Part shown: positions 16,930-34,293 of the stretch, one piece after another
Layout of the letters: every line of letters begins with the position of its first letter
Numbering within the stretch: position 1 is the stretch's first letter
Source of the DNA: Pirellula sp. SH-Sr6A
GTDB taxonomy: Bacteria > Planctomycetota > Planctomycetia > Pirellulales > Pirellulaceae
DNA length: 64,000 nt
Reading direction: 5' to 3'
Assembly (NCBI RefSeq): GCF_001610875.1
Contig: NZ_CP011272.1
Coordinates: 124,001-188,000, forward strand
The notes under the pieces: generated by a model
Databases searched by the model: none
What the model saw: only the letters and a program-made list of their open reading frames with translations
Told to the model about the DNA's origin: nothing
Program-made: the position numbers and the translations under genes

Positions 16930-17967
16930 TTAAAAGCCCATTGAACTTGTTCCACTGCCCGACGCTTGAGGAGCGGATAGCAAATGGGCACCCGGGATGA
17001 TCGCGTTGATGGAATACACATCGACGCCGAACTCCCGCATGGTTTCTGGTGTGATCGAAGACATCATTACACCTGGTTCCATCGGATTGGTTCGGGCCTT
17101 GCCCTCACGCTGCAATGCGATGGTAATCTTGATCACTTTTGGCAATCCTTGAACACTGCTGTCCCATTGAAGTTGCCACATTGTCCCATCGAAATATTGA
17201 AATTCGATAGAAATCACTTCGGTCGCCACCAGTTCTCCCGTTCGTAAGAGGGAGTCCGTCGATGCTTGCTCGTACGCATACTGGGTGATGGCGCGATCCA
17301 ACGAACGCCGCACCAACCCACCGGGCCCTGCGGAAGTGGTTTCGATTCCAGCTCCGAGGATCGTCAATCCTCCCAGTGGATCTTTTACGCCGTCCGGCCG
17401 GGGAGCTTGGACGTAGTAACTCACAGTCTTGATATCGCTGGGCATGTCTCCGAGCGTGCCCGTAGAAATATCCCCTTCGGTGGCATAGTACTCATCCGGT
17501 CTAGGGAGTTTGCTGATATCGATTTCGATAGACGCTTCGCTCCCATAGATCCCGGGTGGCAATGCCGACACCGGAGCTGCTCCTGCATCGCCGGAAGCCA
17601 TCCCGCTCGATGGAGAGGCACTCCCGCTCATCGCGTCCGCACCGAAAGCACTGGGAGCTGCCCCCGATCCAGCGCTGGTTGAGGCTGCCCCTCCGGCAGA
17701 CGCTCCACCCGCTTGCCCGCCACTGAGGATCTCACTCAATCCGCTGGAGTCAAAGGGCTGATAGCGCACGGTGGCACGAATATCTTCGGCGATCATATTC
17801 AAGATTGCGCGGGCCAGCTGGGCTTGCTTTACTTGCTCGCGTCCTGAACTTTGATTGATCAAATAGAGCTGGACCAACGAACCTACCAAACCGGCTACGA
17901 CGGCGGTCAGCATCAGCGCCAGAATCAGTTCCAGCAACGTGAATCCGGATATGCGGCGAGTGTTCAT
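16930..17967 (-). CDS. gspJ: GspJ-like minor pseudopilin
   Basis: The 345-residue protein begins MNTRRISGFTLLELILALML, a classical type IV prepilin leader with cleavage after Gly8 and Glu at +5 of the mature protein. The hydrophobic helix is followed by a periplasmic domain with a Ala/Ser/Gly-rich insert (about residues 85-125). The C-terminal half contains QYAYEQASTDSLLRTGELVA and SIEFQYFDGTMWQLQWDSS, as in GspJ-type pseudopilins. The start overlaps the stop of the upstream gspI by one base (TAATG), which suggests coupled translation. It acts with GspI and GspK at the pseudopilus tip. Confidence 0.85.
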   Translation of the reverse strand: MNTRRISGFTLLELILALMLTAVVAGLVGSLVQLYLINQSSGREQVKQAQLARAILNMIAEDIRATVRYQPFDSSGLSEILSGGQAGGASAGGAASTSAGSGAAPSAFGADAMSGSASPSSGMASGDAGAAPVSALPPGIYGSEASIEIDISKLPRPDEYYATEGDISTGTLGDMPSDIKTVSYYVQAPRPDGVKDPLGGLTILGAGIETTSAGPGGLVRRSLDRAITQYAYEQASTDSLLRTGELVATEVISIEFQYFDGTMWQLQWDSSVQGLPKVIKITIALQREGKARTNPMEPGVMMSSITPETMREFGVDVYSINAIIPGAHLLSAPQASGSGTSSMGF

Positions 17968-18554
17968 TACTGAATTCCTCCCGCCGAACCACTCGTTGCA
18001 CCTGCGCCTGTCGTTCCCATGCCGGTCGCCCCAGAACCGTCGGCCGTCGGGTCGCTCGAGGGGGGACTATCCAAGCCGAGGCTAGGATCGATGACCCAGC
18101 GAACGATGAAAAACAATTCAGGGCTCCCGGTGACCGGATTGGGATTGTCGGTGACTGCCAATCGCAACCCAATCATATTCTCACGCTCGGTGGCGCTGGT
18201 CTCCAACCGGTAATACCATTGCCCGGGAAGCGAACCGTCTTCATTGAGGGTCCAGTCGAGTGGCTCCATCGGAATGGCCCCGACCAAGACCTCTGCCATT
18301 TTCGATTCACATAGCATTTGGGCTTGCGCGAGCTTTTGAGCCGACAGAGCGTTGTCGGTGGCTTGTCGGGTGATCTGCGCTAAAAGTGCAGCCGAGACCG
18401 CGAGAATAGCCAGCGCCAAGACGACCTCCAGCAAGGATAACCCACTACGCGTTGCTTGTCCCTTTCCCGAAGAATTTCGAGGACGACCAAGCCGCAGGAA
18501 AGGCAGCTGGACTCGAATGGTATCGGTGCATCTTTTTGCTTTGATCTGCGTCAT
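17967..18554 (-). CDS. gspI: GspI-like minor pseudopilin
   Basis: The 195-residue protein has a 37-residue basic leader ending in RSG, then LSLLEVVLALAILAVSAALL, the prepilin helix with Glu at +5. The short periplasmic domain contains AQMLCESKMAEVLVGAIPME and LDWTLNEDGSLPGQWYYRLE, the usual GspI pattern in which a conserved alpha region is followed by the E-x-G-x(n)-W-like strand. The last 30 residues are Gly/Ser/Thr-rich. The gene lies 3 bp after the GspH-like gene and overlaps gspJ by one base. Its probable role is priming the pseudopilus tip. Confidence 0.85.
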   Translation of the reverse strand: MTQIKAKRCTDTIRVQLPFLRLGRPRNSSGKGQATRSGLSLLEVVLALAILAVSAALLAQITRQATDNALSAQKLAQAQMLCESKMAEVLVGAIPMEPLDWTLNEDGSLPGQWYYRLETSATERENMIGLRLAVTDNPNPVTGSPELFFIVRWVIDPSLGLDSPPSSDPTADGSGATGMGTTGAGATSGSAGGIQ

Positions 18555-18557
18555 GGC

Positions 18558-19343
18558 TCAAGGTGCTCCGGATGGTGTCGAGGCTTCGATGGCGGGCAAA
18601 GTGGAGGGATCAACCGATGTGGTAGCGTAGAAACTGATCTGTCCCGTCACCCCTCGCAATTGAACTACCATTCGGCGGCCCTTTTCATCCGCCAAGATAA
18701 TCTGAGCGGTCGTTGTCGAACCGTCCGGATAAAGCAGGATGGGATTCGATTCGCTACCGGCAACGGGTGCTGCAGCCCCTGCGACGGGAACGCTGCCTGT
18801 TTCGGTTTCGATAGCAGCTGCGTTGCGAGTATCGATCAACGTATCGACCGACGCGAACTGAACTCCGGTTTCTAACTCTTGGATCTCGCTCTCGGTGGAT
18901 TCGGCGGATGTCGCAACACCACCACCGGCAGCAGCCTCAGTCTCTACCACAGCACCGGTCGCGTCCTGCACGGTCGCACCCGCTGAAGCGTCAATATCAT
19001 CGTAGGTCCCAAGCCACGCGTCGATCGAGTAGTCGCGGCCATTCAACGTCGCCTTGAAGACTTGGGCTTGCCCATTCTTCATTGCTTCCACGCGGGCTTC
19101 CGCAAGATCGTTGGCCAGTCTTTCTGCAGCATTGCGAAGCCTCCGGCTCGTAATCATCGATTCGAAAGTCGGGGCCGCAATACCAGCCAACGCAACGAGA
19201 ATGGCAAGGACGAGAAGGACCTCGATCAAGGTCACGCCTGAGCGACTGTGGGTCGACGCAGGTACGAACGTCGGCCAAGAAACGGAGCGAAGCCAATGCG
19301 AAAAGCGTTGGCTCTTCGTTGATGTTCGTCCTTTCGTTGGCAT
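18558..19343 (-). CDS. gspH: GspH-like minor pseudopilin
   Basis: The protein carries SGVTLIEVLLVLAILVALAG, a prepilin cleavage site and helix with Glu at +5, followed by the GspH-type sequence LRNAAERLANDLAEARVEAM. The chosen ATG at 19343 gives a 34-residue leader; a GTG at 19424 in the same frame would give a longer 61-residue leader, which is unlikely for a prepilin. The C-terminal half has beta-rich segments (NPILLYPDGSTTTAQIILAD, RRMVVQLRGVTGQISFYATT) typical of GspH/FimT. A Glu/Thr/Ala-rich insert separates these parts. It lies between gspG and gspI in canonical order. Confidence 0.8.
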   Translation of the reverse strand: MPTKGRTSTKSQRFSHWLRSVSWPTFVPASTHSRSGVTLIEVLLVLAILVALAGIAAPTFESMITSRRLRNAAERLANDLAEARVEAMKNGQAQVFKATLNGRDYSIDAWLGTYDDIDASAGATVQDATGAVVETEAAAGGGVATSAESTESEIQELETGVQFASVDTLIDTRNAAAIETETGSVPVAGAAAPVAGSESNPILLYPDGSTTTAQIILADEKGRRMVVQLRGVTGQISFYATTSVDPSTLPAIEASTPSGAP

Positions 19344-19467
19344 GGAATGGGGTGACCTGCAATAAAGGAAATCGCCATCCGATGGGGATGGCGCTGGAGG
19401 TCTCGGTCGCATCGGAAATGCCACCTGAGTTCTTCACACATCGCCCAACAGGCGACGAACGAAGTGA

Positions 19468-19878
19468 CTACGGAGTAATGTCGTCTTGGGTTCCCGACTG
19501 ACCGTCCGGACCAAGGCTTCGCAATTCAAACGCCGTTCCATTGAGCTTGTATTCGTAAGGGCGATTCCATGGGTCCGCAGGCACTGGCTTGTCAAGCTTC
19601 TGAACCCACATCGACGGATCGGCTAAATCGCTAGGCTGCTGGTGCAATGCGTCGAGCGCCGAAGGCAACGAACCGACCTGGATTTGATATTCCTTCAGCG
19701 AGGTTGAAAGAATCCCCAACATGGCCTTAGCCTGGTTCTTCTTGGCTTGATCAAAAGTTCCCGTCAATGCTCGGATACCAAAGCCTGCGATGACGACGAT
19801 GATGATAAGAACCAAGAGGACTTCCATCAGCGTGAATGCGCTGCGTTGACGTCCTCTGCTAATTGGTCTTCTTTTCAT
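19468..19878 (-). CDS. gspG: GspG-like major pseudopilin
   Basis: The 136-residue protein has the leader MKRRPISRGRQRSA and then FTLMEVLLVLIIIVVIAGFG, with Glu at +5. The residue before the cleavage site is Ala rather than the usual Gly; an Ala at this position seems tolerated and is also seen in other planctomycete-like prepilins (recollection, not tested). The mature domain contains LGILSTSLKEYQIQVGSLPS and DPWNRPYEYKLNG, then GPDGQSGTQDDI, the calcium-binding GspG C-terminal loop. GspG builds the pseudopilus shaft. It lies 67 bp downstream of gspF. Confidence 0.92.
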   Translation of the reverse strand: MKRRPISRGRQRSAFTLMEVLLVLIIIVVIAGFGIRALTGTFDQAKKNQAKAMLGILSTSLKEYQIQVGSLPSALDALHQQPSDLADPSMWVQKLDKPVPADPWNRPYEYKLNGTAFELRSLGPDGQSGTQDDITP

Positions 19879-19945: not shown

Positions 19946-21148
19946 TTACAGAGAGCTCGCGGAATTGATGATGGGGAGCATGAGTGCCAATACGACGAAC
20001 ATGACCATGCTCGCTAGCACGAGCAACATCACGGGTTCCAATAATCGGACGACTGTTTCCAATCGCCGAAAGGTGGTCCGCTCCAAGTTGTCTGAGATCG
20101 TCACCAAGACATTGTCGAGGTTATTCGATTCTTCTGCAATGGATATCATTTCGACGACGGTCATGGGAAAGTGCCCGGATTTCTCCAGCTGCTTAGCAAG
20201 TCTCTCCCCTGCCGTGATTTCCTCACTCGCCTTCTGAACCGATTCCGCCAAGATGATATTCCCGGCGGCGTGCCGGCTGATCTCCAGCGAACGGAGTAGG
20301 GGAACGCCATTTTTCAGTAGCGTTCCAAGGACTCTGCAGAAGCGGGAAACAGCCAGATTTAGAAACACCGAACCAAGCAAAGGTGTCTTGATTTTTGCTA
20401 AATCGGCATTTCTTTTCCCTTTTTCCGTTTTCAGATATTGGTTGAGTCCCAAGCCAATCAGTGCGATCGCTCCGAGAACCACCCACCAAAACCGCTGCAC
20501 AAAACGGCTGAGTGCGAGGAGAACTTCGGTCGCTTGTGGTAACGCTCCCTTTTTTCGCATCTGTTCGAAGATCGAATCGAATTGCGGTACGAAGAAAATG
20601 AGCAGGACGGTGACGACGATCACACCGACGCTCATAACGAATACGGGATAGGCGAGCGCTCCGGCTGTCTTCCCCTTCATTTCTTCCTGCTGTTCGATGA
20701 ATGAACCGACTCGTTCCAACGCGTCCTCGAGGAACCCGCCTTCGGCTCCCGCGCGAACCATGTTGACTCCCATATCATTGAAGATCCGAGGATAGCGGGA
20801 CATCGCATCTCCCAAGGACTCTCCTTCTTCCACTCGGCTTTTGATTTCCGACACCGCGTTCCGCAATGTTCGGCTGGAACCAGATTGGGTGGAGAGAACA
20901 CTGAGTGCCCGAAGCATTGGGACGCCGCTTCGCAATAGGGAAGCGAGTTGTTCATAAAAGCCGGCCATCTGGGCACCAGCAACCCGGCGGGTTTTCTTGA
21001 CCTGCGAACCTTTATTAATCGTGATCGAGATCGGGAACAACGACTTCGCACCCAACTGAGAAGCCGCATCGCGCTGGCTGTTGGCCGAAATCGTACCGGT
21101 AATCGACTTGCCCTTCATATCTCGGGCAGTGTAAGCAAAATCTGGCAT
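19946..21148 (-). CDS. gspF: GspF-like inner-membrane platform protein
   Basis: The 400-residue protein has two repeated T2SSF cytoplasmic domains. The first contains FYEQLASLLRSGVPMLRALS and the second FCRVLGTLLKNGVPLLRSLE, a clear internal duplication. Three hydrophobic segments are visible: about 170-190 (AYPVFVMSVGVIVVTVLLIF), about 220-240, and the last 25 residues (MLLVLASMVMFVVLALMLPI). This is the standard GspF/PilC architecture, and the protein forms the inner-membrane platform that passes force from the GspE ATPase to the pseudopilus. It starts 6 bp after gspE. Confidence 0.95.
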   Translation of the reverse strand: MPDFAYTARDMKGKSITGTISANSQRDAASQLGAKSLFPISITINKGSQVKKTRRVAGAQMAGFYEQLASLLRSGVPMLRALSVLSTQSGSSRTLRNAVSEIKSRVEEGESLGDAMSRYPRIFNDMGVNMVRAGAEGGFLEDALERVGSFIEQQEEMKGKTAGALAYPVFVMSVGVIVVTVLLIFFVPQFDSIFEQMRKKGALPQATEVLLALSRFVQRFWWVVLGAIALIGLGLNQYLKTEKGKRNADLAKIKTPLLGSVFLNLAVSRFCRVLGTLLKNGVPLLRSLEISRHAAGNIILAESVQKASEEITAGERLAKQLEKSGHFPMTVVEMISIAEESNNLDNVLVTISDNLERTTFRRLETVVRLLEPVMLLVLASMVMFVVLALMLPIINSASSL

Positions 21149-21154
21149 AGGAGA

Positions 21155-22855
21155 TTATCCGAGGTGATCTCCCTTGGTCGCTCTCAGCACTTCATCGATG
21201 CTGGTCGCACCTTCCATCGCCTTGCGGAATGCATCATCTCGCAGAGTGAGCATACCTGCTTCGATCGCAGCTTGTTTGATTTCAAACGAACTCTTGCGGT
21301 CGTGTGCCAATTGTCGCACCTTTTCGGTCGTCGCAAGCAATTCATAGATACCAAAACGACCAGCGTAACCAAGATTGCGGCAAGTCCTGCAACCGACGGG
21401 GCGGTAGAGCGGACGACCTTCCAACTTATGCCATGGGAAGTCGCGAGGCATGTCCTCAGGCTTTGGAGCATAAGGCTCTTTGCAAGATGGGCATAGACGT
21501 CGAACAAGCCGCTGCGCCATGATGCCTTCCACGGTGCTGGCGACCAAGAAGGGTTCGATTCCCATATCGACGATCCGAGTGAAAGCACCTGCAGCATCGT
21601 TGGTGTGCAAGGTGCTAAAAACCGTGTGACCGGTGAGAGAGGCCTGGATCGCGTTTTCCGCTGTCTCCGCGTCCCGGATTTCCCCGACGAGCACGACGTC
21701 GGGGTCGTGACGCAAAATGCTTCGAAGGGACGCCGCGAATGTGAGGCCAATCTTGGGATGGACCTGGATTTGGCTAATTCCTTCGAGTTGGTATTCGACT
21801 GGATCTTCGGTCGTGATGATCTTCACTTCCGGGGACTTGATCTCCAGCAGTGAACTGTAAAGCGTGGTCGTCTTTCCCGAACCGGTCGGACCCGTTACCA
21901 GGATGATTCCGTGAGGAAGGCGGATCAGTTCGCTGAAGAGTTTGTAGGTGGCGTCCCCCATCCCAAGATTTCGAAGGTCGAACTTCATCGAGCCTTTATC
22001 GAGAATCCGCATGACCAAGCTTTCGCCGTGAATCATCGGAATGACGGAGACCCGGACATCGACCTCACGACCGTGAACACGCAGTTTGATACGACCATCC
22101 TGGGGAAGTCGCTTCTCGGCGATATTCAAACGAGCCATGATCTTCAAACGGGAAATAATCGCCGCTTGGAATCGATTGATTTCGGGTGGGACAGGCTGGG
22201 TGTGAAGAATACCGTCGATTCGATAGCGAACGACCAACCCGCTGGCCTGAGATTCGATGTGCACGTCACTGGATCGGGAATCGACCGCTTCTACGAGCAA
22301 TTCATTGACCAACCGGACCACCGACGCCTCTTGCGCTTGCTCTCCGAGCTCGCTGCCATCGGCCTCGATCTTCTCCAACAGTTCGATTTCGTCGTCTTCG
22401 GCTTTGGCTGCCATCAAGCCTTCGATGGTCTCGCTACCAACCCCCAAGTGCTTTTTCACCAGCTTGGCGATTTCCGACTTTTCGGCCACCAGCGGGACGA
22501 CTTGGAGCCCCGTCGCTGCGGCGGCCTCATCGATGGGATACAGGTCGAGCGGATTATGGGTCGCGACAAAGAGCTGCCCCCCCTCACGCTTGATCGGGAA
22601 GAGTCCGTGGCGATAGATCAACTTTTGCGGGAAAGTCTGCAGCAGACTCAGGTCAGGGTTCGCTTCTCGCAAGTCGATAAAATCGAGGCCGAACTCGTCG
22701 GCGACGGCCCGGAGCGCATCTTCTTCCTTGGCAAACCCGGAGCTAATAATGCTCTCAAGAATGCCACCGCCATTCATGTTATTGCGGGATTGGGTAAGTT
22801 GCTCCTGCGTGATCAAGCCCCGCCGAAGCAGCAATTCGCCTGCCTCTGTAATCAT
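21155..22855 (-). CDS. gspE: GspE-like secretion ATPase
   Basis: The 566-residue protein is a type II/IV secretion AAA-type ATPase. The N-terminus has a MshEN-like domain (ELLLRRGLITQEQLTQSR; about residues 1-150). The ATPase core has Walker A GPTGSGKTTTLYSS (about residue 320), an Asp box (ITTEDPVEYQL), Walker B DPDVVLVGEIRDAETAE and the His box (GHTVFSTLHTND). A four-cysteine zinc site (CPSC and CRTC) is present near the C-terminus, as in GspE. All catalytic motifs are intact. It should power pseudopilus assembly at the inner membrane through GspF and GspL. It starts 2 bp after the gspD-like gene. Confidence 0.95.
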   Translation of the reverse strand: MITEAGELLLRRGLITQEQLTQSRNNMNGGGILESIISSGFAKEEDALRAVADEFGLDFIDLREANPDLSLLQTFPQKLIYRHGLFPIKREGGQLFVATHNPLDLYPIDEAAAATGLQVVPLVAEKSEIAKLVKKHLGVGSETIEGLMAAKAEDDEIELLEKIEADGSELGEQAQEASVVRLVNELLVEAVDSRSSDVHIESQASGLVVRYRIDGILHTQPVPPEINRFQAAIISRLKIMARLNIAEKRLPQDGRIKLRVHGREVDVRVSVIPMIHGESLVMRILDKGSMKFDLRNLGMGDATYKLFSELIRLPHGIILVTGPTGSGKTTTLYSSLLEIKSPEVKIITTEDPVEYQLEGISQIQVHPKIGLTFAASLRSILRHDPDVVLVGEIRDAETAENAIQASLTGHTVFSTLHTNDAAGAFTRIVDMGIEPFLVASTVEGIMAQRLVRRLCPSCKEPYAPKPEDMPRDFPWHKLEGRPLYRPVGCRTCRNLGYAGRFGIYELLATTEKVRQLAHDRKSSFEIKQAAIEAGMLTLRDDAFRKAMEGATSIDEVLRATKGDHLG

Positions 22856-22857
22856 GC

Positions 22858-25800
22858 CTAGTTTCTCGTTCCTCGGTTATTGCCGCCGCGGTTTCCGCGA
22901 TTGTTTCCGCCGCCCTGGGTATTACCACCCTGGCCGCCTCGTCCGAATTGGGCAGGATTGAATCCGCCATTTCCTCCGAAGCCGCCCCCGCCAAATCCGC
23001 CCGTTCCGCCGAAGGGGAATCCGCCGGTTTGTTGACGACGTTGGAATTGGCTTGGGTCGAACGTTCTACCGCCGGCGTTGTTGGTGGGATTTGTGGTGGG
23101 AGTCGTACCGCTCGCGTTGGTCGAAGTCGTTCGGGCGCTGGCACCAAACACCGAGTTAAGGGTGTTTTGGATCAGGACCGGATTGACATCCCCATCAAGG
23201 GGTACGGTCAAGATGGTTTGCTCGTCCTCGGCGGCCGCCTCGTCCATCTTGGTCACGAGTGATTTTACTTGATTGTAGAGATACGGGGGACCCACAACGA
23301 TCAAAGCATTGTTCTTTTTATCGGCGCTGATGGTCATGGTCTGCTCCTTCAGTTCTGACTGGGCACTGCCACCGCCACCTCCGCCTCGTCGATTTCCGCC
23401 CCCACGCAGCAAATTGATCAAATCCTCAGGCGAAGGCTGTCGCTGGCCACCCGCTGCCCCCCCTTGCTGCTGCTGGGCGATCTGCGCTGCAAAAACTTGC
23501 TTGACAATCGGTTCGACTTCTTCGACCGGCGTGTTCTCCAAGTAAACGATTTGGACACTTCCTCGAGTCTGGATGTCGACTTCGCTCTGCTCGACATCGA
23601 TCATGGTGAGGATATCTTCCACGAAGAGCGCGTCCATCGGATTGGCCTGAATCCAAAGTGCATTGAGTCGTGCATCGGGTGTAATCACCACGTCTCCTAC
23701 CGTTGCGGCTCCCGATACGGTCGTCGCGGCAGCGGTTGACCCACCTCCGCCACCACCGAAGAGGCTTCCAAACAACCCGCCTCCCCCGAGAACACTCGAT
23801 GCCACATCTCCCAGCAACCCGCCTCCTCCACTGCCCGCTGTAGCTTGCTCCCCAGCAATGACACTCTTTACCAACTCTGCGGCGGCGTTGGCCGTGATAT
23901 GTCGCAAAAAGCGAATGGTGGGTTCCGCTGGGGCATTCCGCATTTGGTCCTCGGCGACTCGGAGCAGTTGATCAAACTCGCTCATCGCTTCTGGATCATC
24001 ACTGGCAATGATCAGGCCCGAAGGACCTTGCATGATGGTGACTTCGCCTTTGCCTGGTTTGGCATCCCCGGCAGTCTGTTGCGCAGATGTCGCTACCACC
24101 GCTTGTTTAGCAGACGGCGCGTTCTTTCCTTCGTCTTCCTTTTTCTCGTCGTAGTTCGCGACTAAAACTCCCTCGGGGACTGCATTCAGCGAGGCACGCG
24201 GGGCATCCTTTTCGCTCGGTTTTTCACCGATCTCTCCCTCCGCGGGCGTTTTGGCCTTGGATGATTCATCCTTTGGCAACGAGATCTTGATTCGGGATCG
24301 GCTGGCTTTGCGAAGCAGTTCCAACTGTTCCAGCAAGCGATCGGCGGCCTTGCCACGCAGAGGAATGACGCGAACACCATCGCCCAATCCTTCGATCTTG
24401 GGACCCGAATCTTCTACTTTGCTGATCAGCATTCGGATTTGATCGACTTCCTGTTTGGTTCCTTTCACCAGCAATCTGCGGCCTGCAGGATCACCGTAGA
24501 AAATGGGACCTTTGATCGCGGCGGGATCCTTACCGGTCGACGTCGATTTGCCGTAAAACTTCTCGAGCGTCAGGACCGCTGCATTGGTATCGATGTTTCC
24601 GAGCGGGATAATCTCGAATTCGCTGGATTGGCCTGCCAACTCGTTGATCAGCTTTTCGATGAAGTCGTGGTCGGTCTTGGTCGCTCGGACGATGATGTTA
24701 TTGGTCTTCGGGTCGAGCGCCATGTTGATATTGGGCTGACCTGCAAACGTCGACTGCAGTACATCCATGGTCGTGGTGGGATCGGAGCCAAGCAGCAGAT
24801 GGCTCTTTACAACTGGCTGCTCCGATGCTGCCATCTTCGTGCTAGACTCGTCCGGTTTGACGTCCAGCTCCTTGACGATGTCGCGAAGTTTCTGGAGTTT
24901 GTCGGCCGAGCCAGTGGCGAACATCGTGTTCCCAAACGTATCGGTCGAGATACTAATATCTTCGGCGCGAAACTCATTCTCTTTGATTCCAAGCAATGCG
25001 CGGGCAATCGAAAGGACTTCTTCCGCACTAACGAATTTCAGAGGTAGTCGCACAATCTTTGCCGAACGGACCCCGTCCGGATTTTCAGATCGTTCAATCG
25101 TTTCACGGATAATGCGAAGCTTGCCACCCGTTTCCGTGACCAGTATTTGACCTGCCGATTGGATCGGGACAATGGAGCCGTGCGGGCCAATGAGAAGCTT
25201 GATTTCCTTCTCGATATCTTCAATGCTTGACCGCTCAAGAGAGAAGACCGTCTTGATGATTTCGTATTCGCCACGCGAGTCGAGCTCCTCAGGTGGAACG
25301 AGCTCGGCCATTTCCCGAAGAAGCGATCGCATCACGTCCGCCGATTCGGCGCTGGCTAAGTCGATGCTCATCAGAATCCGTTGTTTCTTGACAAGCGTGT
25401 AGCCCTTGCTCAAGAGAACACTGTTCATGATATCCATGGCTTGCGCGACCGTGTACCGCCGATAAGGATCTCGATACGTGAAGGTCCCGGTGGGATACGC
25501 GTCGACCTGCAAACTCAACTCCGCCTCTCGGGCGATCCATTTGAGAACTTCCGACCACGGCGCTGCGTTGAAATTGATCAGGAGACCGTCCTCGGGACCC
25601 GATATCGGTTGGCTCGACGACGCGACTGCAGAATTCGAATCGGAAGGGGCTCCGGTTGCCTTCGGGACATCCGATGGACTCGATGCGGGAGCGGCTGCTG
25701 CCGCGATCGCTGGTGCGCCTGTTAGTTCCGTCCACTTTCCTTTTTGTTCGTCGGACAAGACCGCGACGAGGCGGGTTTTGATCTCGGCATCCGCCTTCTC

Positions 25801-26280
25801 GGCCCCCAGGGTGCGAAGCAATACACTGCGTCCCTCGAGGACATTGCGGACTTTCTCCGCCTGCTCCGGCGTCACCTGCAATTGGCTCGCAACCTCGGGA
25901 TCCAAGATCGCGATGGGACCCAAATTGCTCAGGCGCCACTTTTCGGCGGTCGCACGCTGCGCTTCGCTGAGAAATTCGTATCCCTGCTTTTCGATTCCAC
26001 GAATGGCCTCCATTTGCCGCATGCGGCGTTCCGAAGGCGAATCGACGCTTCGCAAGGTGTTGGCCAAATCCAGGGCTTTCGATTCGTATTGCTTGATCAG
26101 CAAGCTCAATTTTCCTAGCTGGTCCTCGGAAAGCCCCAATTCTGCCGCTTTCTGGGGGTCCGTGATCACCGCGAGCACCCCTACCAATGCTGGGTTCCCA
26201 TCCGCAAACGCGTGAGAAGTCACGGTGGTAGCAAGGAGTAATGCCAAAACTCGATTACGAAGGCTTCGGTTGGTATTCAT
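22858..26280 (-). CDS. GspD-position secretin-N repeat protein lacking a recognisable pore domain
   Basis: This is the first gene of the operon. The ATG at 26280 gives a good signal peptide (LRNRVLALLLATTVTSHAFA); a GTG at 26319 would extend it by 13 residues. The protein is about 1140 residues. A helical, LTxxQ/Spy-like segment (about 30-175) is followed by an STN-like segment (about 240-320) and then at least six secretin-N-type modules of the form strand-helix-LxxLL-NxIIV-helix-D, for example LDPKTNNIIVRATKTDHDFI and SADKKNNALIVVGPPYLYNQ. The C-terminal 100 residues are Gly/Asn/Arg-rich (PFGGTGGFGGGGFGG). I see no secretin beta-barrel domain and no VPxLGDIPxLGxLF-type signature, which a channel-forming GspD needs. 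It may be a periplasmic scaffold, with the pore encoded elsewhere. Confidence 0.8.
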   Translation of the reverse strand: MNTNRSLRNRVLALLLATTVTSHAFADGNPALVGVLAVITDPQKAAELGLSEDQLGKLSLLIKQYESKALDLANTLRSVDSPSERRMRQMEAIRGIEKQGYEFLSEAQRATAEKWRLSNLGPIAILDPEVASQLQVTPEQAEKVRNVLEGRSVLLRTLGAEKADAEIKTRLVAVLSDEQKGKWTELTGAPAIAAAAAPASSPSDVPKATGAPSDSNSAVASSSQPISGPEDGLLINFNAAPWSEVLKWIAREAELSLQVDAYPTGTFTYRDPYRRYTVAQAMDIMNSVLLSKGYTLVKKQRILMSIDLASAESADVMRSLLREMAELVPPEELDSRGEYEIIKTVFSLERSSIEDIEKEIKLLIGPHGSIVPIQSAGQILVTETGGKLRIIRETIERSENPDGVRSAKIVRLPLKFVSAEEVLSIARALLGIKENEFRAEDISISTDTFGNTMFATGSADKLQKLRDIVKELDVKPDESSTKMAASEQPVVKSHLLLGSDPTTTMDVLQSTFAGQPNINMALDPKTNNIIVRATKTDHDFIEKLINELAGQSSEFEIIPLGNIDTNAAVLTLEKFYGKSTSTGKDPAAIKGPIFYGDPAGRRLLVKGTKQEVDQIRMLISKVEDSGPKIEGLGDGVRVIPLRGKAADRLLEQLELLRKASRSRIKISLPKDESSKAKTPAEGEIGEKPSEKDAPRASLNAVPEGVLVANYDEKKEDEGKNAPSAKQAVVATSAQQTAGDAKPGKGEVTIMQGPSGLIIASDDPEAMSEFDQLLRVAEDQMRNAPAEPTIRFLRHITANAAAELVKSVIAGEQATAGSGGGGLLGDVASSVLGGGGLFGSLFGGGGGGSTAAATTVSGAATVGDVVITPDARLNALWIQANPMDALFVEDILTMIDVEQSEVDIQTRGSVQIVYLENTPVEEVEPIVKQVFAAQIAQQQQGGAAGGQRQPSPEDLINLLRGGGNRRGGGGGGSAQSELKEQTMTISADKKNNALIVVGPPYLYNQVKSLVTKMDEAAAEDEQTILTVPLDGDVNPVLIQNTLNSVFGASARTTSTNASGTTPTTNPTNNAGGRTFDPSQFQRRQQTGGFPFGGTGGFGGGGFGGNGGFNPAQFGRGGQGGNTQGGGNNRGNRGGNNRGTRN

Positions 26281-26666
26281 GGAAAAGAACGAATGCAAAT
26301 GAAGAAAATTGCGCTGCACTTCGACTCTAGTTGCCTGGCAACCATTCGCTAGCGGCTAATGAATAGTTGACGGTGTAATGTTCGAAATCGCGTGCCAAAT
26401 ATCGGAATCAGCACAGGAAAAAGGTTTCCAAATGCTAAAACCGGCACACTCTTAACCCGTTCGGCGGCAAAAGGTTCCGTGGGAAGGCTTCAGAGGGCCT
26501 AAGATCGAATGGGAACCCGTGTTTTTCGGGACGGTTCTAAACGGGGCGCATCTGCCGAGGGTGACAGTTTGGTCGTAGTGGAGGCTGCAGATCGGTCGGA
26601 GGGACCGATCTGCCGAGGTCGACGCATATCGCGATGGAGGACCACCGATCGTCGGTGGACGCCCGG
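26281..26666. other. Intergenic region with hairpins, between the secretion operon and an esterase gene
   Basis: About 390 bases with no supported gene. Downstream of the esterase stop (minus direction), a 11-bp perfect stem GCAGATCGGTC/GACCGATCTGC lies at 26587-26597 and 26603-26613, and a second stem CCACCGA/TCGGTGG lies near 26643-26659. Neither has a T tract. The promoter of the secretion operon must lie near 26281-26450. Short open frames here lack recognisable domains. Confidence 0.5.
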
Positions 26667-27851
<1,185 letters not shown>

Positions 27852-28493
27852 ATGGTAGAAAACTCGATTGAAAGCTGGTTACATGAGATTCGAGCTGGAA
27901 ATTCCCAGGCACAGCAAGCGATTTGGGAGGCGTTCTTCCCCGAACTTGTCCTGCTAGCACGCAAACGATTAACCGGCATCCGCAAAGCGGTCGAGGACGA
28001 GGAAGACGTCGCGCTAAGCGTCTTGCAAAGTTTTTTTACTGCTATGCAGAAAAATCGGTTTCTCGATTTGAGGGGTCGCGACAGCCTTTGGCGGTTACTC
28101 TCCTGGATGACCCATAGAAAAGCGATCGATCGCATCCGCTTTCAGTCGCGGCAGAAACGCAAAGTTCAAGGGGAGTCGGCGGTGCTTCCGGGACCCATTA
28201 GCAATCCTGGTGATCGCCCCCTGGAACAAGTCGCTGGCCCGGAGCTAGGTCCGGACTTGGAAGCGATCCTTATCGAAGAACTGCGCGTCCTGTTGGACTT
28301 GCTTAATGAACCGATGAGACTCGTTGCGATTCGTAAACTGGATGGGTTTTCCAATGCGGAAATCGCGCAGGAGCAAGGCTGTTCACTTGCTACGATCGAG
28401 CGTCGATTGAAATTGATTCGCGAAATTTGGACTCAGCATGGAAAATCCATCGACCTTCCACCCAGCCCTTCCGATTCCAATTCCTCACGGTGA
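27852..28493 (+). CDS. ECF-like RNA polymerase sigma factor
   Basis: The 213-residue protein has the region 2 and region 4 layout of planctomycete-type ECF-like sigma factors. Region 2 contains AIWEAFFPELVLLARKRL and DSLWRLLSWMTHRKAIDRIR; region 4 contains LDGFSNAEIAQEQGCSLATI, a helix-turn-helix that reads the -35 element. An acidic linker (EDEEDVALSVLQSF) sits between the first helices. The 3' end overlaps the kinase start by 56 bp in a different frame. In planctomycetes many such sigma factors are linked to Ser/Thr kinase genes, so the kinase probably controls this factor, for example by phosphorylation; that is inference. Confidence 0.93.
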   Translation: MVENSIESWLHEIRAGNSQAQQAIWEAFFPELVLLARKRLTGIRKAVEDEEDVALSVLQSFFTAMQKNRFLDLRGRDSLWRLLSWMTHRKAIDRIRFQSRQKRKVQGESAVLPGPISNPGDRPLEQVAGPELGPDLEAILIEELRVLLDLLNEPMRLVAIRKLDGFSNAEIAQEQGCSLATIERRLKLIREIWTQHGKSIDLPPSPSDSNSSR

Positions 28494-31400
28494 ATTGCTC
28501 CGACTCGATGATGCGTGCGAATCATTCGAAACTTGGTTGAGGGTCGCCATTCCGACCTCCTCCGTGGAGATTGCATCGCAATTATCGAAACATTTGGCCG
28601 ATTTGCTTGCCGATGGCACTTTTCGCTCAGAGGAATCGTTCCGAATTCGATTTCTTCAGGAGACCCTCCCCATCGCATGGGCTTGGCAAACCGAACGAGG
28701 TCAATCGATCGAGGTCGCATTCTACGCGAACCTGGGATCCGTCATCCCCGCACTCCACGCTTTTTGGGAAGCAAAAGACTGCACCGAAGCACCGCTAGCT
28801 ACGGAGAGAAGTGGTAACACCGAGCCGTTGTCCGACTCCTATGCCCTTTCGCAGGCGCAACTGGAGGATTTCGCGATCTGGATTGAGAAGTATCGCGACG
28901 CATGTCATGAAAATCCAACCTTAGGAGCTTCAGACTGGATCGCGGCCCAACAAGGGCTTCCGGCCGTACTACGGGACGCCATGGATGGAATGGCTTCGCC
29001 AGATCGATTGGGAAAGGGAGCAGGCAATTGGTCCATCGGCGAATTCCAAATCGTCCGCGAGATTGGACGTGGGGGAATGGGGATTGTCTTTGAAGCGATC
29101 CAGCCCTCCTTGGGACGAACGGTCGCCTTGAAGATTCTATGGTCTGGATCCCATTCCAATGGGGAAGCCATGAAGCGATTTCAGCGTGAGGCGCTGACCG
29201 TCGCCAAGCTTCACCATACGAACATCGTCCCGATCTTTTCAGTGGGAAGCGATGGTCCGATCAACTATTTCGCTATGCAATACATCGAAGGAACGAGTCT
29301 CGACAAGATCCTTCACGATCCGGACACGCCCATCGATTGGGAATGCGTTGCCAACTGGGGACTTCAAGCGGCGGAAGCTCTCGAGCATGCGCATCGGCGC
29401 GGGATCGTTCACCGCGATGTGAAGCCATCCAATTTGCTTCTCGATCGCGAACAACGTATTTGGCTGTCCGACTTCGGGCTCGCCAAACAACAAAATGACG
29501 TCACCTTGAGCGTCGCGGGGGCACTGCTGGGAACACCGCGCTATATGAGTCCAGAGCAAGCGTCCGCATCGGTGCACGCAATCGATCATCGCAGCGACAT
29601 CTACAGCCTCGGCGCGACGCTTTACGAGCTTGCGACCGGGCATCCGGTTTTCGATGCCCAGACTCCACATGGCGTGATCCATCAAATACTGCACAGTCAG
29701 CCAGTACCAGCCACTCGCTACCAACACCAGTTGCCCAAAGATTTCAGCACGATCCTGATGAAGTGCCTTTCGAAGGATCCAACCTCTCGCTATGCGAGTG
29801 CGTCGGAGTTGGCCTCGGACCTTCGAGCGCTGCTCGATGGACGCCCGATCCGAGCCAAGCAGCCCACGCTCGTGGAGCGGTCTCAGCGGTGGATTCGTCA
29901 GCATCGCAACGAATTCACTTGGTCGGTCACATCGATTGTCGCGAGCCTGATGTTGCTGGCCTTTGCCATCCTAAGTTGGGTCGGTTATCGACAATGGAGA
30001 GAATCCCACCTCTCCCTTACCAGTCCCGCTACTTCGTTGACGGCGGAAATTCTTAGCGCAGATGGCACACTCGCGCTCCACGCTCAAACGGTTCCCACAC
30101 AAGACCCCATCCCGCTGCAACCGGGCGAATACAAGTTGCGGGTTCGAACCCCCGGTTTGTTGAGCCAAACCTATCAGTTGTCTCTCTTAGCAGGACGGGA
30201 TCACAAACAGACGCTGAACCCAACAGATCAACTGCTCGCGCCATCCAAGACTGGATTCTTTCGAACCCAACTCGTGAAAGGGACCGAACATGCCTGGGGG
30301 GTATCGATCGATGCCCATCATCTGGTGATCGAATCGCTCGCGGGTGAGGAACCCAAACAGGCGTCCATTCCCTGGACTGCGTTTACGAACGGCGACTCGG
30401 CTCCCAGTTTTCATTGGGAGTCTGCCCATCAATTCCATCGAAACATCGTACAAGGCGCGAAGTCGTCAACGGCTCCTTTTTTGATAGGTCTTCCCGGTGC
30501 AACGATTGGTTTGGAATCGGACCATCTTCTCATTGCCACTCGCCACCAAGCGTTCGTGGCAATGGTGGGATGCGATGGGACGACAAAGTGGGCGCGTGGG
30601 CTCGCAGCCGATGTCCTGCAAACCGATTCGATACAGGAACAACTCGACGCCTGCAAACAAAGTCCACGTAGTACTATCGTAGAACCCCCTCGCATCGTTG
30701 CGGATATCGATGGCGATGAACATCCCGATTTCATCGTCCATATCGCCTCCATTCCTCCGAGAGGCCTTCCCCAAACTCATCAAGCGGTGCGCGAAGTCAT
30801 CGCATTGTCTGGACTTCGCGGCGAGATCCTATGGAGCACCACAATCCCGCTTTCCGCTTTTTCTTTAAGTCCCCAAGAGGTCCCCTATCACTACAAATGG
30901 TTTACGGGCATGAATACAGGGAGCAGTGAAGGAGGAAGTGGCACGTTTCTTAATCAAGGCTATTGGAGTCGCAACAGCAACCAAAGCTGTGAACTGACCG
31001 GCGAATTCGTCGCAGTCGGTGCTACGATCTTCCTCAATGACTCGCGTGCTGCCGAGAATCCGAGCACAACGTTTTGGTATCAAGTCGGTGAGAACCTACT
31101 CTCTATCGATCTGCGAACGGGGAGGTTCCAAGGAGACGCGATCCACCTAGGAGGAATCCCCCAAACCCCTCCCCTCTTCTGGCCCGAAAAGAACGACGTG
31201 CCAGCAACTCTCTATTGGATGGACGGAGGCTCGACGACGGATGGGCAGGCTGCAAAACCGATCAATGTCGCTCCACCATCGCTTCGGTGCGTCGCTTGGT
31301 CCTTATCCGAAAATCGGGTTCTTTGGCAGAGGACGCTACAAGCACAGCTGCCACTACTTCGAACGTGGGAAATGACTCTTCCTCGCTGGCCATTCTTGGT

Positions 31401-34293
31401 CGATCTCGATTCGGACGATGTTCCCGAGTGGATCGTCCCCGATGAATCGACAAACGGAATTCCTGGAAATCCAAAGAGCACTGCTATTCGAGTACTCCAT
31501 GCGAAAGACGGTGAGGAGAAGTGGCATGCACGCATTCGACATGCCGATATGCAGATCGATCATTGGGTGGTTGGCCCAGACCGGGATGGTGACGGTGTTC
31601 TCGATTTGATCGTGACGACGATGGCTGGCATGCCAGTTCGCGTCCACCTCGATGTCCTTTCCGGCGCGACAGGTAAGACGATTCTGCAGGGGCAAAGCCG
31701 CGTGCTGCATCGCGACTCGCCGGAGACGTTCTACCTTTGCCAACCATTTCTTTGGGAGAATCGGGTTGATGGTTGGCCGCGTGTCGTCGTTCCCCTTCAA
31801 AGCTCTCATTCCCGCGAAGGAGACGCAGCGGAACTGAAGATCTTTTCGATTGGAACCGGACATTGCGAACAAGAAGCGACGCAGGTCCATTCAGTAGAAA
31901 TAGGAGATCTAGACGGAGACAAAGTACCCGATCTTTCCCTCTCACGATTTCGCACACCGGAACTCGGATTGCGAGGACAATCCGAGACTCACTTTGTGCG
32001 GGGCACTGGGGAATCCCTTTGGGACCGTATGGGCCAACCCCACCAGAAGGTGTCCGATCTCAATGGGGATGGAATTCTGGATTTGATCCAAACGGATTAT
32101 CGTTCCATCACCGCACACAACACGTTGGACGGTTCCCTCCTATGGCAGATCCAGTTGAGTGGCCGTGCCTCGCACACAACTGTCCATAGCGAACAAGGCG
32201 TTGCACCGTTGCGATTGCGAGGAGCACCGAGCTGGGAAGCAGAAGGATTTGCCGAGTTCGACCATCGTAATTGGGATTTCGATGACGATGGGATTGGTGA
32301 TCTGATCCTGGAGTCCCAGACCGGCGGAAGCAAGCTCGAAGTACTCGAAGCGATCTCTGGAAAAACTGGATCGAGAATTTGGAAGACACGAGCGACAAAA
32401 ACCTACCAGCAAGGATCGGGATATCTGCAGTGCCAAGACCTGGATAGAGACGGACGCAGCGAGATCGTTTACCTGTCCTATTCGGATTCGCTGCTTGCAT
32501 TGAAAAATCGCCGAAGTTGGTCTGGCGATGACGGAAATCTCATCGTGTCTGTGTGGGATGCTACGACCGGAGCGGAGCGATGGCATCGCGCATTGACGCG
32601 TAAGTACGGATCTAATTCCGGTCAGCGTTTGCCCTACCCATTCGCGTCGCGACCGATGCCAAAATTGGGAATGGGTGACTTCAATGGCGATGGCGTTACG
32701 GACATTCTCGCGCCCGCCGAGCCGTCTGCGGAGACCACACCACCGATGGCGGCCACTTGGCTGGCACTCGATGGGAGGGATGGAACCGAATTGTGGAATC
32801 GTCCGGGAGCTTCCTGCCGAGAATCCAGCAACTGCTTCGCCGAAGCGGCACAAGCCCGCGTTCAGCCACAAGGAGCGAATGCGGACGCCGCTCTCTCCCA
32901 AGTTTACTTCGTCGAGGTGCGAGATGATTCGCGGGAGGACGGCAGTCTGTCCAGGCAGCTCCATGCGGTCGCGGTCGCAGCCAAGTCGGGAGTCGAACTC
33001 TGGGACCATCCCATCGAAGTTGACGCGAGTTTTCGTCGCAACTTTGCTTCCACGGGGGACAGGCTTTTCAGCGGAACCCTGCTGGATGCAGACGGAAAGT
33101 CGATGCTTCTCTTAGGCTATGAACAGGATCGAAAGGATCATATTCAGATTTTAGACGAGGATGGGACCAGTATTGCCAAGCGATCTTATCCGCAGCCCTC
33201 TACCTATCCCAAGCCACCCATTATCTGGAGGTTATTGGACAACGATGCCGATGGCATCCTGGATCGAGCGATTGTTGGCAGCCGGATTGAAATTGTGGAT
33301 CTCTCAAAAAATTTGGAGACGCTCTTCACGATCGCCGATGCGCATGCGGGAACGTCGGTCGGTATGAACGGAGCGCTGGACGCCGACCGCTATCCAGCGA
33401 ACGTGGAGGTCCATTCGCTGAGTGCGTCCCATCCTCCTAGCATCGTACTGCACTCGTGGGGGGAACATCCCAGCGTCTCGGCATTCGATAGCGAGACCGG
33501 GGATCGACATTGGTGGAGTCACGGTCCGACGAGACATCGAACGTATTCGAATGAAATCGTACCGACTCTCGCTATCCCGCGCCGAGATGGAGAACTCCCA
33601 ATCGTCGTCACCAATCACCTCGATCAATCCAATGCGAGGGCAGCGTGCAGCGATACACCGTCATCGAGAAATATCCAGTCACCGATTTCCTTGGTATCGA
33701 CGGAGCGCGATGTGCGATTTCAAAGGCCATTGCCTTGGATGCAAAATTCGATGGCGACCGAATTACCCATGGAGGTTGTTGCGTTTCTAGTAACCGGTCT
33801 CTTCCAATCCGTGTTGCTGGTTTGGATCCCTGGCCTCTATTTGTGGACAACCTTTCGAAAGCGGAAGTGGGGCCTTAGATGGCTGTTATTGCTACCCATT
33901 CTCGTCGCCATTTCGCTGATCACGCTTCGGGTGCAACAAGGGACCGAAGGAGGTGGCTGGTTTACAAGTTATGGATTGGCGCTTTTATTCTCGCCGATCG
34001 TCGGGATGATCGGATTGATAGTGCATCGATGTGTTCAGAAACAATGGCGTGGAGTCTTCGCTATTTTCTTTTATATCGTGCTCGGAGCAATCCTCACGGC
34101 GGGAGGAATTTTGAGCCTTCATGGGTGGAGTCAGCCGCTCGAGCCGGGTGAATATTACGACTGGGCCGGATGGTACTGGATCATTCCGCAAAGTGTATTC
34201 GTAACAGCGTACGTTTATTGGGCCGTTCGAGCGCTCGGAAAGATGTTCCATCGACAAGGGCTTGAACGTAGAACGGTAGCATCTGCTCGGTAA
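28438..34293 (+). CDS. Giant Ser/Thr protein kinase with FG-GAP-like repeats and C-terminal membrane segments
   Basis: The 1951-residue protein starts inside the sigma factor gene. Residues about 200-465 are a complete Hanks-type kinase: IGRGGMGIVFEA (glycine loop), VALKIL (Lys), GIVHRDVKPSNLLLD (catalytic loop), SDFGLAK (DFG) and MSPEQ (P+1 loop). A transmembrane helix (about 493-517) puts the rest outside the cytoplasm. The long outer part has repeated Asp-rich, FG-GAP/EF-loop-like motifs, including DRDGDGVLDL, DLDGDKVPDL, DLNGDGILDL, DFDDDGIGDL and DFNGDGVTDI, which suggests a calcium-binding beta-propeller. The last 175 residues contain about five more hydrophobic helices. The likely role is a sensor whose outer propeller signals to the kinase, which then acts on the partner sigma factor. 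No ribosome-binding site is obvious; translation may be coupled to the sigma gene. Confidence 0.93.
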   Translation: MENPSTFHPALPIPIPHGELLRLDDACESFETWLRVAIPTSSVEIASQLSKHLADLLADGTFRSEESFRIRFLQETLPIAWAWQTERGQSIEVAFYANLGSVIPALHAFWEAKDCTEAPLATERSGNTEPLSDSYALSQAQLEDFAIWIEKYRDACHENPTLGASDWIAAQQGLPAVLRDAMDGMASPDRLGKGAGNWSIGEFQIVREIGRGGMGIVFEAIQPSLGRTVALKILWSGSHSNGEAMKRFQREALTVAKLHHTNIVPIFSVGSDGPINYFAMQYIEGTSLDKILHDPDTPIDWECVANWGLQAAEALEHAHRRGIVHRDVKPSNLLLDREQRIWLSDFGLAKQQNDVTLSVAGALLGTPRYMSPEQASASVHAIDHRSDIYSLGATLYELATGHPVFDAQTPHGVIHQILHSQPVPATRYQHQLPKDFSTILMKCLSKDPTSRYASASELASDLRALLDGRPIRAKQPTLVERSQRWIRQHRNEFTWSVTSIVASLMLLAFAILSWVGYRQWRESHLSLTSPATSLTAEILSADGTLALHAQTVPTQDPIPLQPGEYKLRVRTPGLLSQTYQLSLLAGRDHKQTLNPTDQLLAPSKTGFFRTQLVKGTEHAWGVSIDAHHLVIESLAGEEPKQASIPWTAFTNGDSAPSFHWESAHQFHRNIVQGAKSSTAPFLIGLPGATIGLESDHLLIATRHQAFVAMVGCDGTTKWARGLAADVLQTDSIQEQLDACKQSPRSTIVEPPRIVADIDGDEHPDFIVHIASIPPRGLPQTHQAVREVIALSGLRGEILWSTTIPLSAFSLSPQEVPYHYKWFTGMNTGSSEGGSGTFLNQGYWSRNSNQSCELTGEFVAVGATIFLNDSRAAENPSTTFWYQVGENLLSIDLRTGRFQGDAIHLGGIPQTPPLFWPEKNDVPATLYWMDGGSTTDGQAAKPINVAPPSLRCVAWSLSENRVLWQRTLQAQLPLLRTWEMTLPRWPFLVDLDSDDVPEWIVPDESTNGIPGNPKSTAIRVLHAKDGEEKWHARIRHADMQIDHWVVGPDRDGDGVLDLIVTTMAGMPVRVHLDVLSGATGKTILQGQSRVLHRDSPETFYLCQPFLWENRVDGWPRVVVPLQSSHSREGDAAELKIFSIGTGHCEQEATQVHSVEIGDLDGDKVPDLSLSRFRTPELGLRGQSETHFVRGTGESLWDRMGQPHQKVSDLNGDGILDLIQTDYRSITAHNTLDGSLLWQIQLSGRASHTTVHSEQGVAPLRLRGAPSWEAEGFAEFDHRNWDFDDDGIGDLILESQTGGSKLEVLEAISGKTGSRIWKTRATKTYQQGSGYLQCQDLDRDGRSEIVYLSYSDSLLALKNRRSWSGDDGNLIVSVWDATTGAERWHRALTRKYGSNSGQRLPYPFASRPMPKLGMGDFNGDGVTDILAPAEPSAETTPPMAATWLALDGRDGTELWNRPGASCRESSNCFAEAAQARVQPQGANADAALSQVYFVEVRDDSREDGSLSRQLHAVAVAAKSGVELWDHPIEVDASFRRNFASTGDRLFSGTLLDADGKSMLLLGYEQDRKDHIQILDEDGTSIAKRSYPQPSTYPKPPIIWRLLDNDADGILDRAIVGSRIEIVDLSKNLETLFTIADAHAGTSVGMNGALDADRYPANVEVHSLSASHPPSIVLHSWGEHPSVSAFDSETGDRHWWSHGPTRHRTYSNEIVPTLAIPRRDGELPIVVTNHLDQSNARAACSDTPSSRNIQSPISLVSTERDVRFQRPLPWMQNSMATELPMEVVAFLVTGLFQSVLLVWIPGLYLWTTFRKRKWGLRWLLLLPILVAISLITLRVQQGTEGGGWFTSYGLALLFSPIVGMIGLIVHRCVQKQWRGVFAIFFYIVLGAILTAGGILSLHGWSQPLEPGEYYDWAGWYWIIPQSVFVTAYVYWAVRALGKMFHRQGLERRTVASAR

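Follow-up and report, generated by a model that had tools for sequence, protein, structure and literature searches.

The DNA considered here is a stretch of 64,000 nucleotides from Pirellula sp. SH-Sr6A (contig NZ_CP011272.1, positions 124,001 to 188,000), referred to below as the window. It carries a type II secretion system (T2SS) cluster that opens with the gene of a GspD-like protein, named D, in which no pore domain was found. The general view of T2SS secretins is that one polypeptide spans the distance between the inner-membrane platform and the gate in the outer membrane. Our results indicate that, very probably, D is the inner, platform-docking half of a split type II secretin and SecO, the product of a distant gene of the same genome, is its outer, gated half. 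The gene of D and the parts of its product are as follows.

22858-26319, minus strand: poreless GspD-like protein D, 1153 amino acids (aa) from a GTG start, proposed inner half of a split secretin.
26203-26280, minus strand: putative Sec signal peptide, D residues 14-39, with cleavage after AFA, from a reading of the sequence alone.
25720-26199, minus strand: helical N-terminal region, D residues 41-200 (AlphaFold2, predicted local confidence (pLDDT) mostly >90).
25351-25593, minus strand: N0 domain, D residues 243-323 (N0 hidden Markov model (HMM), AlphaFold2 fold and structural matches).
23230-25260, minus strand: Secretin-N ring-building modules, D residues 354-1030 (Pfam and AlphaFold2).
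22861-23211, minus strand: half N module (to residue 1061), then a disordered Gly/Asn/Arg-rich tail (residues 1067-1153).

An internal ATG at residue 14 (position 26280), which the initial annotation used as the start, is probably the true start of D, because the signal-peptide-like stretch begins at this residue. Residues 41-200 were weakly LTXXQ-like (PF07813, under its cut-off), and a related stretch was found in 15 of 23 other D proteins at E <1e-5. The N0 domain was among the most conserved parts of D, and invariant columns clustered there; PF21305 scored 13.8 bits on D, under its cut-off of 27. The initial annotation had described at least six secretin-N modules and a Gly-rich end. Both were recovered, with six Secretin_N stretches by Pfam (PF03958, 2.2e-49), seven N-type modules by our own reading of the strand and helix order in the AlphaFold2 model, and the disordered tail. 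Disordered inserts were present in the last three modules. The AlphaFold2 model was calculated from a 65-row alignment and had a mean pLDDT of 71.5 and a predicted TM-score (pTM) of 0.32. Its local confidence was >80 in most modules and lower in the last modules and their inserts; given the pTM of 0.32, the arrangement of the modules is unreliable and only the module folds were used.

The best Foldseek matches of the model belonged to the GspD family, including PulD and crystal structures of the N0-N2 part of XcpQ and of GspD, at low TM-scores (normalised by query length, no more than 0.12 in the top 50). D alone had no match at E 0.01 in a sequence search of the PDB, and a search with the 65-row D profile matched GspD and PilQ-type chains. 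The GspD model TIGR02517 scored 128.5 bits on D, with a cut-off of 351, and its best stretch covered profile positions 25-234 of 600. Of the 71 complete open reading frames (ORFs) of D homologues described below, 68 end in R, K or N. A nuclear-pore-like role of the Phe-Gly (FG)-containing tail was considered and dropped, since the FG count in the last 120 residues varied from 0 to 12 across 12 D proteins.

The initial annotation had reported no secretin domain in D, and this held up. A PF00263 match or a barrel in the C-terminal 400 residues was looked for with Pfam, with a secretin HMM and with AlphaFold2, and neither was found. PF00263 did not match D at E up to 1, and the AlphaFold2 model of D contained no barrel. 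The secretin HMM was specific to the order of the window genome; it comprised 24 PF00263 matches, taken from 24 of 33 loci (both strands were open in 8 loci and 1 was too short). On D it scored -1.2 bits. On the D homologues of 30 loci, three of which were open at the C-terminal end in the fetched stretch, it reported 23, all at 2.3 bits or less, and left seven unmatched even at E 1000. The same HMM scored 220 bits on SecO and 153 on the Tad-type secretin of the genome, both of which are members of the HMM, and 72 bits on the third secretin of the genome, which lies outside its training set. The stop codon of D stands two bases ahead of gspE, and this gap leaves no space for a pore domain. Truncation or an assembly error was rejected as the cause of the poreless end and is unlikely, as every one of the 71 complete homologous ORFs has the same poreless end.

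Downstream of D, the genes of the T2SS cluster were identified as follows.

21155-22855, minus strand: GspE ATPase, directly downstream of D (PF00437, 2.2e-136; MshEN).
19946-21148, minus strand: GspF (PF00482).
19468-19878, minus strand: GspG major pseudopilin (PF08334).
18558-19424, minus strand: GspH-like pseudopilin (PF12019).
17967-18554, minus strand: GspI-like pseudopilin (N_methyl under cut-off; same place in relatives).
16930-17967, minus strand: GspJ-like pseudopilin (PF11612 under cut-off, N_methyl over).
14264-16915, minus strand: GspK-like minor pseudopilin, 883 aa (PF21687; NF037980 under cut-off).
12404-14227, minus strand: GspL/PilM-like platform protein (PilM models under cut-offs; same place in relatives).
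11202-12401, minus strand: protein in the GspM position with an Ig/cadherin-like domain (PF05345), M by its position and by phmmer matches in relatives.

The E to M set thus lies in one cluster, with E, F, G, H and K over cut-off and J recognised by N_methyl only. The GspK of the window (883 aa) can be compared with five other K genes (L089, L090, L092, L095 and L096), four of which encode 510-551 aa and one 860 aa. No match to GspC (PF11356) passed the cut-off in the genome, and the best reached 14.4 bits (E 0.11). Contact of D with GspL/M is therefore probably direct.

Three genes with PF00263 were found in the genome, which has 6.53 Mb in one contig. SecO (L020:9097-12840, 1247 aa) has six Secretin_N stretches and a PF00263 match at 7.8e-38. 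It lies about 460 kb from the window cluster, with no E-type ATPase gene near it in the source genome, and its homologue in relatives is the GspD encoded at the end of this gene cluster. SecO would therefore be the cognate pore-forming GspD of the window T2SS. The initial annotation had offered a channel encoded elsewhere or a different exit; the former is supported by these three genes and by the homology of SecO, and the latter is unneeded, since a matching pore gene exists. The two other secretins were not favoured as partners of D. One (L024) is short, with BON and T2SS-T3SS_pil_N domains, and we take it to be a Tad-type secretin; the other (L023) has a tetratricopeptide repeat (TPR) match and no Secretin_N over cut-off.

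Two N0-bearing poreless paralogues of D are also encoded outside the window (L021:8640-11858, 1072 aa, and L022:9728-12331, 867 aa). This raises the alternative that D, L021 and L022 are interchangeable inner halves that serve one or more pores, so that one outer pore would have several inner-membrane platforms. The genome has three N0-bearing poreless proteins and one SecO, E-type ATPases form another group at 881-886 kb with no PF00263 gene nearby, and an L021-type gene adjoins D and SecO in genome G055. Against this, no E-type ATPase gene was found near L021 or L022 in the source genome, and L023, the third secretin, might be the one that works with the second platform. We consider interchangeable halves very unlikely.

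D was widely conserved among relatives, with a match at E ≤1e-10 in 52 of 60 genomes. A second set was taken from named genome records, which probably overlap with the unnamed ones: the best 80 of 103 stretches encoding a D relative, in which 71 of the chosen ORFs were complete. The taxa include Pirellula metagenome-assembled genomes, Blastopirellula marina DSM 3645, Rhodopirellula europaea, R. rubra, Rubripirellula obstinata, Roseiconus nitratireducens and others. All 80 chosen ORFs, including the 71 complete ones, had N0, and no pore was found in any of them. Because these loci were found with D as the query and N0-matching ORFs were preferred, D and N0 are in part to be expected in them, whereas the lack of a pore is a result. 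E started at most 500 bases downstream of D in 42 of the 71 complete cases, and no E was present in the fetched stretch in 17. A missing pore might also be read as the mark of a decayed, non-working GspD. Such decay is extremely improbable, given the retention of D throughout the order, its invariant residues, the 71 complete homologous ORFs and the E gene that starts close behind in 42 of them.

The co-occurrence of D and SecO was tallied manually in the 60 relatives, with cut-offs of E ≤1e-10 for D and E ≤1e-60 for SecO. Both were present in 49 genomes and neither in 8, with D only in 3 (G025, G031 and G046) and SecO only in none (Fisher 6e-8). With the D cut-off at 1e-30, the numbers were 46 with both, 9 with neither, 2 with D only and 3 with SecO only (Fisher 7e-7); because of the relatedness of the genomes, both P values should be taken as indicative only. 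D, SecO and GspK were jointly missing from seven genomes.

The order poreless D, E to M, SecO was found in six genomes (G028, G027, G048, G053, G037 and G102), the last of which belongs to another order than the window genome. SecO was on the opposite strand in G053, other ORFs lay between D and E in G027, G048, G053 and G037, and in G037 no separate G gene was assigned. G033, G030 and G036 have a second and paralogous cluster with this layout, whose poreless D proteins have 2070-3749 aa. At L106:3036-14285, a poreless D of 3,749 aa with 33 Secretin_N stretches stands at the front of such a second T2SS cluster. SecO closed the cluster, with no full D ahead of E, in G166, G040 and G042; in G055, D and SecO were neighbours and the fetched stretch contained no E to M genes. 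A pore-bearing GspD stood at the end in the other clusters examined from this phylum, so the front is not the usual position of GspD there. The initial annotation had placed D in the D position of a complete D to M operon; the genes from E to M are indeed present, but the front is not where the pore-bearing GspD stood in the other clusters examined.

Sister families contain eleven giant secretins (1,892-3,240 aa), with N0 near the start and the pore near the end. Ten of their genes end a T2SS cluster and one is unlinked. At L183:3834-13556, K-L-M genes are followed by the gene of a single-chain secretin of 3,240 aa that has both N0 and pore. Ten giants were analysed by alignment; that of G195, which resembles the giant of G179, was left out. 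In nine of the ten, D and SecO taken together correspond, in order, to one single-chain secretin. With its tail removed, the D core aligned to the N-terminal half of these nine, in a single stretch in six (280-438 bits) and in two pieces in three, and the match in the G191 giant covered 157-955 at 438 bits. In these nine giants a Gly peak (G 0.64-0.84 in 50 residues) comes after the D match, and the main SecO match lies beyond it. Visual inspection of five giants showed that the similarity extends through the terminal half module of D as far as the Gly run. By position, the Gly/Asn/Arg-rich tail of D corresponds to the Gly-rich linker of the giants. As a control, the D core was aligned to 14 SecO and four out-of-class GspD proteins, which gave partial matches of at most 97 bits. 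A periplasmic scaffold, as suggested in the initial annotation, agrees with the encoding of the pore elsewhere, but the term is too weak, because D is colinear with the N-terminal half of the single-chain giants.

The distribution of N0 was followed with an HMM built from 24 D proteins. It matched the GspD of four out-of-class genomes (G099, G171 and G163 at 7e-11 to 4e-8, and G060 at 0.024). The fetched stretches ended inside the pore domain in G060 and G163 and before it in G099; the GspD of G171 was complete, with N0, three N modules and pore in one chain of 698 aa at the cluster end. The HMM matched none of 13 SecO proteins of the window's order. It did match the SecO of G102 at 1.8e-19, and N0 was found in seven of eight SecO proteins examined in family f21, which is another order. 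The states form a series: one chain with N0, three N modules and pore (G171), a giant chain (f83, f84 and f86), two chains that both have N0 (f21), and N0 in D only (the window's order). We take these families to be orders of the class Planctomycetia, with the window in Pirellulales, and the named homologue taxa support this placement of the window.

These comparisons also bear on whether D might be a separate periplasmic ring or platform scaffold, for example one that replaces GspC, which is not coaxial with SecO, so that SecO alone would be the full channel. Consistent with this, no GspC passed the cut-off, the six or more N modules of SecO would suffice for a long channel, and the helical stretch ahead of N0 in D was found in none of the ten giants tested. 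On the other hand, the sister families join the equivalents of D and SecO covalently, in the order N0, modules, linker, modules and pore, and the 13 SecO proteins tested lack N0, the expected docking domain of a self-sufficient GspD. A separate scaffold is thus unlikely.

A GspE tree of 26 sequences, two of them partial, grouped the split lineages apart from the giant and out-of-class ones with an ultrafast bootstrap of 90. Since the split lineages group apart, the tree favours splitting rather than fusion, with a bootstrap that is not strong. No D was found outside the class, in the cluster neighbourhoods examined in out-of-class genomes.

The reading as a split secretin is preferred because D combines N0 with the lack of a pore, SecO of the window's order shows the reverse, the two mostly co-occur, they flank the same cluster in several relatives, and sister families have the same parts in one chain. 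Several observations weigh against it. SecO lies outside the cluster in the source genome, so its pairing with D there rests on homology, and the presence of L021 and L022 means that D is not the sole candidate for the inner half. G031 and G046 (drafts) have D and no SecO match, and the D match of G025 (also a draft) is weak. G058, an 88% complete draft, has GspK and lacks D and SecO, and G017, G040 and G050 have SecO and weak D matches, with N0-bearing poreless paralogues in place of D in G040 and G050. The SecO of G198, from the other order, lacks N0. Weak SecO matches (6-58 bits) occur in the N-terminal half of giants, and the longest giant (G184, 3,240 aa) aligns uncleanly and has no Gly peak. 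The region ahead of E was visible in four of the eleven giant-type loci; three of these had no N0 protein there, and in the other (G236) an ORF of 405 aa matched N0 weakly (1e-3). The bootstrap of 90 in the GspE tree is below the usual 95.

If the secretin is split in this way, D would be exported to the periplasm, where its N0 would dock on the inner-membrane platform of GspL/M/F/E and its about seven N modules would build a ring stack. SecO would sit in the outer membrane and provide the pore and six or more N modules, with no N0. The similarity to the single-chain relatives suggests physical contact between the two proteins, which may join end to end into a single long channel, the joint being formed at the flexible, Gly-rich tail of D. 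A split secretin would account for the poreless GspD-like gene beside gspE in these planctomycetes. An order with a two-protein channel, sisters with a single chain and an intermediate state would also offer a natural experiment on the coupling of docking and gating and on the splitting of a secretin gene.

Other genes were noted around the cluster. A putative esterase is encoded directly upstream of D (26667-27656; PF00756, with a partial match to a xylanase/feruloyl esterase model) and is possibly a secreted enzyme. Further upstream (27852-34293), the gene of an extracytoplasmic function (ECF) sigma factor overlaps that of a protein of 1951 aa that has a kinase domain and matches to FG-GAP/PQQ repeats. 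An IS66-type transposase (7584-9047) lies near the downstream end of the cluster. Just outside the window, an ORF of at least 5,131 aa (L028:3603-18998) ends the stretch immediately before it.

A split secretin would also be a concrete candidate for the crateriform structures of planctomycetes. In the available part of PMC5394234, these are described as planctomycete-specific outer-membrane complexes that are tied to the inner membrane like press studs, with 12-nm pili-like fibres and about 104 per cell in P. limnophila; the periplasm can swell, and the protein of the structures is not named in that part. We suggest, with considerable doubt, that the giant or split secretin could be their core and that the split at the Gly-rich joint might make the channel detachable. 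The inner half would stay on the inner membrane and the pore in the outer, and the two would snap together only where the membranes approach, which would suit a cell with a locally swelling periplasm. How far the channel reaches may depend on how many N modules it has, with as many as 33 Secretin_N stretches seen in a single poreless half.

In the literature on planctomycete secretins and T2SS and on split secretins, mainly open and mostly covered at title level, no split GspD in a bacterial T2SS was found. Secretin-family outer-membrane proteins were reported for an anammox species without the word GspD in the available text of PMC3422733, the available text of another planctomycete paper makes no mention of T2SS (PMC11131199), and 'Planctomycetes' is absent from the main text of the survey PMC6668835. 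Among known systems, D is most like GspD (TIGR02517, PF21305, PF03958 and PF00263), with N0 followed by N modules, a place beside gspE-M and the best structural matches. Unlike GspD, it has no pore domain, which is in a second protein, and about seven N modules, compared with the three given for bacterial GspD in the accessible part of PMC8134430. The mitochondrial T2SS resembles the present system in that, as far as described there, its secretin consists of several polypeptides (GspD and GspDN1-3) and no GspC was found; it is reduced, eukaryotic and without N0, whereas D keeps N0 and has multiplied modules. A long stack of N rings is also known from Thermus thermophilus PilQ, which has six in the portion of PMC5745081 available, but in one chain with the pore. 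In the type III secretion system (T3SS) of the rhizobial type, the N- and C-terminal parts of the secretin are on separate genes, RhcC1/RhcC2 and HrcIIC1/HrcIIC2, according to the available part of PMC3574062. The likeness is in the two genes and the difference is that this is a T3SS and not a T2SS. As stated in the available section of a commentary (PMC4500985), RhcC2 was derived from a Tad-like secretin, so the RhcC halves need not be pieces of one gene, whereas both planctomycete halves match one single-chain relative.

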